Assembly: GCF_020696975.1 (NCBI RefSeq)
Contig: NZ_JAJGBK010000020.1
Coordinates: 1 to 64,000 of the forward strand
Length of the DNA: 64,000 bases
Direction of reading: 5' to 3'
Origin: Methanoculleus sp.
GTDB taxonomy: Archaea > Halobacteriota > Methanomicrobia > Methanomicrobiales > Methanoculleaceae
Each line of letters begins with the position of its first letter. The first letter of the stretch is position 1. The position numbers and the translations under genes are program-made. This document shows, one piece after another, positions 25,277 through 46,147 of the stretch. Under the pieces are notes generated by a model. The model was not told where the DNA came from. It searched no databases and saw nothing but the letters and a program-made list of their open reading frames with translations.

Positions 25277-25277
25277 C

Positions 25278-25283
25278 TTTTTT
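25278..25283 (+). terminator. T-run after the PPOX-like gene
   Basis: Six T immediately after the stop codon (TAACTTTTTTCTG), a likely archaeal U-tract terminator. Confidence 0.4.
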
Positions 25284-25478
25284 CTGCGGGATCTCTGTCG
25301 GGATCTGCCATGGGCAGTATCCACGGCCTTCTCCCAGGTTCTCTTGTGCCGCAGGCGACTACCCACCCACAGATTTCCGTTGGCTATTGCCACTGGGGGA
25401 GGCGGATCGCGGGGAGGGGGGAGCATCCCCCTCCCCTATCTCCACTCCTAAACTGATGTCTACAACCCCACCCCACCC

Positions 25479-25613
25479 GGCCTTCGGCCTCCTCAGTCGC
25501 ACCTAGCGGTGCTCAAACTCCTGCCGTTCCGGCAGTCGCAACTCGCACCTGCGGTGCTCGAACTCTGCTCCTCGAAACCCTGCGGGTTTCTCGAACTCCG
25601 TCCTTTCAGGACG
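25479..25613. repeat. Array of short hairpins joined by TCGAACTC linkers
   Basis: Six consecutive perfect hairpins occupy 135 bases: GGCC-TTC-GGCC, GCACC-TAGC-GGTGC, CTGCCG-TTC-CGGCAG, GCACC-TGC-GGTGC, GAAACCC-TGC-GGGTTTC and CGTCCT-TTC-AGGACG. Stems differ in sequence, but loops are TTC or TGC and the linkers are TCAAACTC, TCGCAACTC, TCGAACTCTGCTCCTC and TCGAACTC. The array lies in the 575-base gene-free gap 25277-25851. Degenerate relatives are seen at 26775, 27614, 45676 and 46001. This resembles no REP/BIME family that I can name. The ORFs across it are products of the repeat. Confidence 0.85.
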
Positions 25614-25670
25614 TCGTTCTCCGGAGCATCGTTCCCCACACCTCGGGGCGGGGGCAGTGCATGGCGATAT

Positions 25671-25690
25671 CCCCACGGTCCACTGTACGG
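25671..25690. repeat. Dispersed intergenic repeat CCACGGTCCACTGT, copy 1
   Basis: CCCCACGGTCCACTGTACGG. Related copies are at 27633-27650 and 62400-62421, all between genes; CCTCCACTGTACG near 45510 is a partial match. The shared core is CCACGGTCCAC(T/G)GT. Confidence 0.55.
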
Positions 25691-25851
25691 GACTTTTCAC
25701 GAACCCAAACGGTTCTGGCGATCACCTAAAGAGGCCAGGATCAACCAACCATCTTCCATACGTTCGCGCACCGCCTCGTGGATAGCCCGCCTCCCGGTTC
25801 CGCACATTTTTCCCGCACCGGAGCCAACGCTTCATCCGGAAACGGTGAAAA

Positions 25852-26567: not shown

Positions 26568-26843
26568 TCACGAGTCTGAGCGTCGCGGTGGTGGAGTGTT
26601 TTGGGCATAGGCGAACTCAAAAACCTCGCGGCCCCGGAAGAGCGTGTGGCCGTAGCGCCAAACTACGTAGCTGCTATAGGGAAAGAAGAAGACGAGCGAC
26701 ATGAAGATTATTGAAACTTTCAGATTGTTCTTGAAGTTGTCCCAAAACGCTGTTGCCGGAAGAGGGACACCTTCGCGCCTGATGGTGCTCGAGCTCCGGC
26801 CCTTCAGCCCTTCGGCACTCTCGAAGACCTTCGGTCTTCTCAC
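26568..26843 (-). pseudogene. ORF remnant of a membrane protein merged with repeat sequence
   Basis: The 91-codon ORF reads as repeat-derived sequence in its first 30 residues (VFESAEGLKGRSSSTIRREG), then changes to protein-like, AT-richer sequence with one hydrophobic helix (LKVSIIFMSLVFFFPYSSYV) and a charged tail. It lacks its own start signal and lies just downstream of a membrane-protein gene on the same strand. It looks like the 3' end of a lost gene; a small real gene starting at the internal Met (MSLVFFFPYSSYV) is the alternative. Confidence 0.35.
26775..26839. repeat. Degenerate copy of the short-hairpin array
   Basis: GCGCC-TGAT-GGTGC is followed by TCGAGCTC (26789-26796, the linker of the main array with one change), then a decayed unit, then the perfect hairpin GAAGACC-TTC-GGTCTTC (26823-26839), whose TTC loop is as in the main array. 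Confidence 0.6.
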
Positions 26844-27476: not shown

Positions 27477-27613
27477 AACGTGCTCCTTAAATAATTGGAT
27501 GCTTTTCAATCGGTAAGATTTATCGATCTATCGGATTTGTTGAATCCCCACCAGTTGGTTCTCGAAAGTCACACTCATGGGGCACTCCGAGACACGGCTT
27601 CCCCCCGGGTATC

Positions 27614-27650
27614 GCACCTGGTGGTGCGCAGGCCACCACGGTCCACTGTC
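27614..27650. repeat. Hairpin unit beside CCACGGTCCACTGT repeat, copy 2
   Basis: GCACC-TGGT-GGTGC (27614-27627) is one unit of the hairpin family. Six bases on is CACCACGGTCCACTGTCGGG, the second copy of the other dispersed repeat. The two families co-occur at this site and in the 25.5-25.7 kb gap. The remaining gap (27477-27821) shows no gene. Confidence 0.55.
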
Positions 27651-45441: not shown

Positions 45442-46147
45442 CTCAGGGTTCCAATACCGGACGACTCGACCCGGCAGCGGCAACCCACGCAGGGTAGATA
45501 GACAACGCCCCTCCACTGTACGCGTTGTGATTGTCACGGCATCCGCCGTTGCAAGGAGATTATCTGGGCGGGGTTTTTCTCATTTTATCATGGTTTCCAT
45601 GCGGGGGGAGGAGTTTAAGCATCGTTAGGCGCAGGGATCACAAAGTCCGGTCGATGAGTCCAGGGAGCCCCCTTCGCACCTGACGGTGTTCGAGTTCCAG
45701 GCCGTCCTGTTCGTCGCACTTCGCAGCCTCGCGTCTTTCCTGTGGGGTCGTGAAACCGTTCTTAAATTGCCTTGTGATTGAAGATCTGGATAGTAAGGCA
45801 TTCCGGAGTGTTGGGCGTTCCCCGCCCGTTCGCTGATATGACTTCCATCGGGAATCGGCGAGCGGGGACGGCTGGCGGTTGGCCGGGGGTTTCAAAAAAT
45901 TCAAAGAATTTCGAGATGCGAATGTAGTGAGCGTGAGCACAAAAGGCGCGAGGACGCGATCGGGGGGCGCACCCTGCGGAACGGCGGGTGCATGAGCACC
46001 GCACCTCGCGGTGGGGTGCCCCCTCTCCCCCGAGGGCACATCATCTACCGTTTCTGTCGATAACCATTATTTTGCGTCGTGAGGAGTCAGGGTGAGCTTG
46101 GACGATCCCCCTTCGCGTTTTCGCGATTTCAGGCAAAAAAGAATGCG
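45442..46147. repeat. Gene-free gap with hairpin-family copies
   Basis: No convincing gene; the 133-codon minus-strand ORF is low-complexity and repeat-derived. GCACC-TGAC-GGTGT with TCGAGTTC after it (45676-45697) is a copy of the hairpin-plus-linker unit of 25.5 kb. CACC-TCGC-GGTG (46002-46013) is another. ACAACGC/GCGTTGT flanks CCTCCACTGTAC near 45503-45529, a partial copy of the second dispersed repeat. Confidence 0.5.

Follow-up and report, generated by a model that had tools for sequence, protein, structure and literature searches.

Mobile palindromes a few tens of nucleotides long are known from organelle genomes. The GC clusters of yeast mitochondria, such as GC42, are about 42 nt long, form hairpins, have short direct repeats at their ends, are polymorphic for presence or absence, and merge into larger clusters; they encode no enzyme, and their mechanism of spread is unsolved (PMC4478555). 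The palindromic repeats of Volvox mitochondria and plastids and the hairpin-forming elements of sponges are about 50 nt long, have loops of 3 to 5 nt, and are inserted into each other; these elements and the double-hairpin elements of Allomyces form double or multiple tandem hairpins and are mostly intergenic (PMC2670323, PMC2800124). In the archaeon Methanoculleus marisnigri, tandem satellites have been listed, by length only, as families of 45 and 51 nt (PMC6749651). Here, we analyzed a hairpin array in a 64,000-nt stretch of Methanoculleus DNA (NZ_JAJGBK010000020.1, positions 1 to 64,000), the whole of which is called the window. A first-pass annotation of the window could name no described family for the array. 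This holds for the open-access literature, in which we found no description of such units in Methanoculleus.

Results

The first-pass annotation had placed six perfect hairpins, joined by near-identical linkers, at 25479-25613. All six are present in the window: GGCC-TTC-GGCC (25479-25489), GCACC-TAGC-GGTGC (25499-25512), CTGCCG-TTC-CGGCAG (25521-25535), GCACC-TGC-GGTGC (25545-25557), GAAACCC-TGC-GGGTTTC (25574-25590), and CGTCCT-TTC-AGGACG (25599-25613). Their folding is far beyond chance. As RNA, the array had a z score of -5.6 on either strand relative to dinucleotide shuffles, and as DNA, it had a z score of -5.1; 0 of 200 shuffles folded as well. However, the GGCC hairpin is part of the element around the array rather than of the array itself, and a seventh stem, formed by TGCTCC (25566-25571) and GGAGCA (25623-25628) and seen in the DNA fold, encloses the last two hairpins. 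The linkers are indeed near constant, but two of them alternate: linker A, TCRNRCTC, and linker B, TCGYW followed by NYTC. With up to two mismatches, the linker pattern GGTGCTCGARYTC occurred 32 times in the window versus 8.5 times expected.

The repeating unit has the consensus (N)YTC-hairpin 1-TCRNRCTC-hairpin 2-TCGYW, a length of 44 to 49 nt, and stems of 5 to 8 bp. The array is made of three copies of this unit (46, 45, and 48 nt), which together form a 139-nt insert on the forward strand (25495-25633). Unit 1 (25495-25540, forward strand) reads AGTC-GCACC/GGTGC-TCAAACTC-CTGCCG/CGGCAG-TCGCA and was matched by a covariance model of the unit at 25496-25541 (E = 6e-19). Unit 2 (25541-25633, forward strand), which is 45 nt long without its insert, reads ACTC-GCACC/GGTGC-TCGAACTC-TGCTCC...GGAGCA-TCGTT. 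Its second hairpin is interrupted; the model match at 25542-25622 (E = 6.5e-14) includes the inserted stretch, and the nested stem was found by script. The interruption is unit 3 (25571-25618, forward strand; 48 nt), which reads CTC-GAAACCC/GGGTTTC-TCGAACTC-CGTCCT/AGGACG-TCGTT. This nesting of copy 3 in the second hairpin of copy 2 is why the outer, seventh stem had been missed. Minus unit 3, this hairpin would read TGCTCC-TCC-GGAGCA, and an uninterrupted TGCTCC-TAC-GGAGCA is found at locus L003 of the window genome. The nested layout recurs in 11 other places. Nine of the 12 composites have identical spacing of 2 and 9 nt, and the outer stems of the composites begin with TGCTCC, CGCTCC, GGTTCC, or CGTTC, the partner arm covarying to match each time.

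All 139 nt lie within a MITE-like element of 318 bp, here called element A (25368-25685, no strand assigned), which has imperfect terminal inverted repeats (left, CACAGATTTCCGTTGGCTATTGCCA; right, TGGCGATATCCCCACGGTCCACTG); the array stands between its CTCCTC and CCCC. In genome G011 (L103), the orthologous element A is array free and reads GGCCTTCGGCCTCCTC^CCCCGCCCC (CTCCTC^CCCCGCCCC), with exactly the window insert missing. The same genes, 91% and 86% identical, neighbor both loci. Because other species carry other elements at this site, both gain and loss of the window insert are possible.

Filled and empty states were also found elsewhere. After the stop codon of a gene that ends at about 6291, a standalone array is present in G003, G004, and G006, and the site is empty in the window genome and G011; in this array, G004 alone has an extra 49-nt unit in a hairpin arm. 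G004 also has a hairpin loop occupied by a 44-nt unit, CGGACG-TTC[GCACC...TCGCA]TTC-CGTCCG, with the loop TTC doubled. The empty counterpart, CGGACG-TTC-CGTCCG, is present in G006 and at a third locus (L263), and G006, empty at the orthologous site, has a copy of the 44-nt unit with one mismatch at a different locus. No donor for the 44- or 49-nt unit was found within three mismatches in the fragmented assembly of G004. For both G004 units, two other genomes or loci show the empty state, which makes gain the simpler explanation; across genomes that differ by about 7 to 15% in their genes, the choice between gain and loss rests on parsimony at few sites. Further differences of unit size separate L133 from L130 (46 nt), L132 from L129 (47 nt), L237 from L203 (48 nt), and L212 from L071 (46 nt), and another occurs in L074 (48 nt).

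Once duplicates had been removed, 11 of the 23 hairpin-bearing indels measured 44 to 49 nt and one measured 94 nt, the remainder not being unit sized; among hairpin-free indels, 2 of 35 fell within 44 to 49 nt. The right end of an insert is TCGYW, and the adjoining target starts with pyrimidines. TTC was doubled in two events, other junctions had no clear duplication, and the two ends of the unit, YTC and TCGYW, do not form an inverted repeat. Units insert singly beside a short run of pyrimidines (YYC), both in intergenic DNA and in MITE-like elements, behind another unit to give tandem arrays, and within the hairpins of resident units to give nested arrays. Comparisons across species show gains or losses of single units, in steps of 44 to 49 nt. 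The earlier proposal of a mobile mini-repeat is supported by filled and empty orthologous sites and by the peak of unit-sized indels, and mobility of the units is well supported.

The arrays might instead be old and inherited, with homologous recombination and slippage at their conserved linkers as the main cause of growth and shrinkage and with no real mobility. Conserved linkers could recombine with one another and thereby remove or duplicate units, giving part of the size peak; several hairpin indels of 30 to 42 nt have their ends in shared linker sequence (L264/L194), and L058 contains 29-bp tandem arrays. However, insertions occurred where no unit had resided, after a stop codon and in element A, other insertions are nested in loops, and the events are scattered over many loci. 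We consider this explanation quite unlikely.

Many copies, the window's among them, stand at fixed points of element A, which raises the possibility that the hairpins are part of A and spread only along with it. Standalone arrays without A already contradict this, and the orthologous A element occurs both with and without units. Furthermore, G013 has 2 recognizable A ends versus 159 units by the covariance model, and therefore the units are independent of A. Spread as a mere part of A is scarcely credible.

Several observations concern the host elements themselves. Element A, with lengths of about 100 to 320 bp, was also seen in L074, L075, L076, L093, and L107. Its ends are imperfect inverted GTGGACCGTGGGGATATCGCCA and CACGGATTTCC..GGATATCGCCA; 33 are recognizable in G003 and 2 in G013. 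The right end in the window has 0 mismatches to the end pattern, which occurs 2 to 33 times per genome. A second palindromic host element with the ends CTCACGCGAAG / CTTCGCGTGAG likewise bears hairpin units (L062, 7600-8050; L074, 5190-5510; L104 in G003; and L237). Window positions 25277-25851 and the orthologous gaps in G003, G004, G006, and G011 are an insertion hotspot with contents that vary by species: A with the array, A without it, A in inverted order, a CACGCGAAG element, or a 3.6-kb stretch whose sequence resembles that of an operon for an ABC transporter and binding protein. At L058 (positions 1-290; G012:C50), the 29-bp tandem array contains hairpin 1 and the 5' arm alone of hairpin 2 (CTCCGCTCCTCGCACCTTCGGTGCTCGAA), and it looks as if repeated loop insertions shed their 3' arms.

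The stems had been described as variable between constant linkers and loops. They do vary, but as a small covarying vocabulary, and the loops vary too (TTC, TGC, TAAC, TGAC, and TATC). Hand-picked units were 98% paired, with a covariation score of 0.76 versus 0.26, counts that are partly circular because the units had been chosen for pairing. Two further comparisons were chosen to avoid this circularity. Hairpins abutted linker A on both sides at 16 of 906 sites versus 0 of about 4,200 control sites. In alignments of homologous copies, for which one copy alone was selected for its hairpin and some of which are paralogous, two-sided changes in array hairpins preserved pairing in 57 cases and broke it in 13; for other hairpins, the numbers were 132 and 108. 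By this test of compensatory changes, the stems covary. Either whole-hairpin exchange through the linkers or template switching from arm to arm could explain the covariation; template switching is documented to generate compensatory changes and to invert loops (PMC8794818). When orthologous arrays were compared, a single inverted loop (GAA/TTC) was observed.

Gene context bears on two other suggestions of the first-pass annotation, that the repeat extends genes and that it is a structured RNA module. The repeated peptides EFEHR and ELEHHQARR come from short open reading frames (ORFs) through the repeat, and just 4 of 32 clusters in the G003 sequence overlap long ORFs, two of these at the very start only; gene extension is not supported by these counts. 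An apparently in-frame 90-nt insertion in G006 was dropped as a candidate, with no clear gene frame across it. In a small sample with genes called by ORF length alone, the 27 placed intergenic clusters of G003 lay in 14 tandem, 11 convergent, and 2 divergent gaps (baseline, 104, 54, and 54, respectively). The convergent excess was not significant (P = 0.11), and the clusters in tandem gaps were on the same strand as the gene in 7 cases and on the opposite strand in 7. Such placement is expected of insertions that are tolerated away from promoters and does not fit a terminator or a 3' RNA signal.

Nevertheless, the arrays could be functional RNA or terminator/attenuator elements kept by selection on structure. 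Their strong folding and covariation and their preference for the 3' sides of genes over divergent promoters agree with such a role, the pairing score of hand-picked units being discounted in part for circularity. However, there is no preferred orientation in tandem gaps, no T-run follows the array hairpins in the window sequence, and in a search of the window with Rfam 15, a tRNA-Ser was the sole match and the array did not match at the gathering score. More than 100 copies per genome and empty alleles in sister species also argue against an RNA module. An intrinsic terminator was rejected on the 7:7 orientation relative to the upstream gene and the missing T-run, and a role maintained for RNA structure is, in our judgment, very improbable.

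The covariance model found the unit to be abundant in Methanoculleus and found nothing convincing in 14 other Methanomicrobiales, which had 0 to 5 matches (best E, about 1e-3). Most Methanoculleus genomes carry 60 to >150 units. At least 137 matches were obtained in each of 13 genomes and 60 to 98 in each of four others; the window genome had 80, and G013 had 159. Scoring covered 150 candidates per genome and their neighbors, and the high counts are therefore lower bounds. An unselected 200-kb stretch of G003 held 17 units, which extrapolates to about 220 per genome, and 384 kb of the window genome held 9. G002, G007, G014, G018, G031, and G033 are array poor (0 to 18 units), and three of these genomes are small (1.9 Mb). 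In an exact-pattern search of 85,462 species, the matches listed were from Methanoculleus or from metagenome-assembled genomes labeled Methanomicrobiales or Euryarchaeota, except for one Arthrobacter contig, which is probably a chance match. Viral, phage, and plasmid collections contained no matching record, and a viral or plasmid origin was rejected on these zero matches.

Within the window, relatives of the unit were scored with the same model. Of those named in advance, three are real: a decayed unit at 26772-26820 (E = 7.9e-13), which is followed in the sequence by the hairpin GAAGACC-TTC-GGTCTTC (together 26772-26838); a decayed unit at 45673-45722 (E = 1.5e-11); and a remnant at 27611-27646 (E = 0.0029), in which hairpin 1 adjoins an element A end (ccacggtccactgt). 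These are on the forward strand. The relative reported near 46001 is weak, a possible remnant on the reverse strand (45964-46017) that is not significant (E = 0.23). A decayed unit that had not been noted earlier lies on the reverse strand at 45913-45952 (E = 4.6e-5).

We also searched for enzymes that could move the units. Of 21 Methanoculleus genomes, 18 lacked Y1_Tnp (PF01797), among them that of the window and the complete, array-rich G003, with positive controls, and two of the three carriers, G002 and G014, are array poor (0 to 6 units). REP-type mobilization is therefore unlikely, and REP/RAYT mobilization was rejected since most carriers of the unit lack Y1. Reverse transcriptase (PF00078) was absent from 20 of 21 genomes; retrotransposition was rejected because the enzyme is found in 1 genome only. 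Cas1 was present in 20 of 21 genomes irrespective of unit copy number, array-poor genomes included, and as a nearly ubiquitous protein, it is uninformative as a candidate mover. The cas1 genes fall into two groups, with E values of about 1e-100 and about 1e-50, the latter occurring in nearly every genome of the genus; cas1 loci include G000:C1:174745 and G000:C22:78837.

A serious rival is that the units are nonautonomous and are moved in trans by a dedicated, hypothetical recombinase. Such an enzyme would read the hairpins together with the YTC/TCG ends, much as IS200/IS605 and REPs are recognized by Y1/HUH enzymes. Constant ends and insertions of unit size are compatible with it, as are a possible YTC repeat of 3 nt, the pyrimidine side of the target, and the strong copy number differences between species. 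However, the distributions of Y1 and reverse transcriptase described above do not favor it, Cas1 does not track copy number, and no coding element with unit ends was seen. We regard a dedicated recombinase as unlikely but worth serious consideration. From the distribution of Y1, reverse transcriptase, and Cas1, we infer that a host process acting on extruded hairpins is the likelier mover.

Discussion

With a probability of roughly 0.7, we interpret the array as a cluster of minimal mobile DNA units of 44 to 49 bp that are spread by a host process acting on hairpins. Such a process would act on extruded single-stranded hairpins. A nuclease might cut at the hairpins, with repair following, or, during replication, synthesis might switch to the template of another copy where the two share YTC/TCG linker ends. 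Switching from arm to arm would keep the stems perfect during drift and can invert loops. Nesting would be explained if the hairpins themselves were the sites of breakage or switching. The two hairpins of a unit may be free to differ in sequence provided that they pair. The units look selfish or neutral, and a cellular function is not required. More tentatively, and with somewhat less than even odds, they may constitute a new class of mobile DNA of ~46 bp in cellular chromosomes, one without a dedicated transposase that would spread by hairpin-directed repair or template switching and use its own hairpins as landing sites, giving rise to nested arrays and to covarying stems that mimic conserved RNA structure.

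Covarying stems by themselves are no proof of a functional RNA; here, they belong to DNA that looks selfish and that one species has and the next lacks. Methanoculleus species are methane-producing archaea, and the units occupy up to >100 places per genome with no known transposase that explains their movement. For palindromes of this size and habit, how they spread is a question unsolved in organelles. In an archaeal chromosome that has at least 100 copies and clean empty sites but neither Y1 nor reverse transcriptase, it would become open to testing, since such cells can be cultured and deeply sequenced. The array-poor genomes could help to identify genes whose presence follows copy number.

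Among described elements, bacterial REPs and REPINs are likewise high-copy, intergenic, nonautonomous palindromes, but theirs is a conserved palindrome tagged with GTAG or CGTC, and in REPINs two such palindromes are paired in inverted orientation (PMC3116915, PMC3733652). In contrast, the units have two different hairpins in direct H1-H2 order, variable stems, YTC and TC[AG] flanks, and no tag, and most of their carriers lack Y1/RAYT. MITEs are also short, nonautonomous, and intergenic, and host element A resembles one, but the unit is far shorter and has no terminal inverted repeats. The Volvox, sponge, and Allomyces elements differ in sequence and belong to eukaryotic organelles, and they are not known to alternate hairpins with two constant linkers. 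The 45- and 51-nt satellites of M. marisnigri are from the same genus and near the unit in length, and by length alone, the basis of this comparison, they may be identical with it. Yeast GC clusters share with the units a length of 30 to 50 nt (here, 44 to 49 nt with two hairpins) and presence or absence at orthologous sites. Their ends carry direct repeats of 2 to 3 nt; here, TTC was doubled in two events, and the other junctions had no clear repeat. They differ in being organellar and in having conserved stems and variable loops, whereas here the stems covary. This likeness is one of habit only, with common descent neither claimed nor expected, and our best reading by analogy is that the units would work as mitochondrial GC clusters do.
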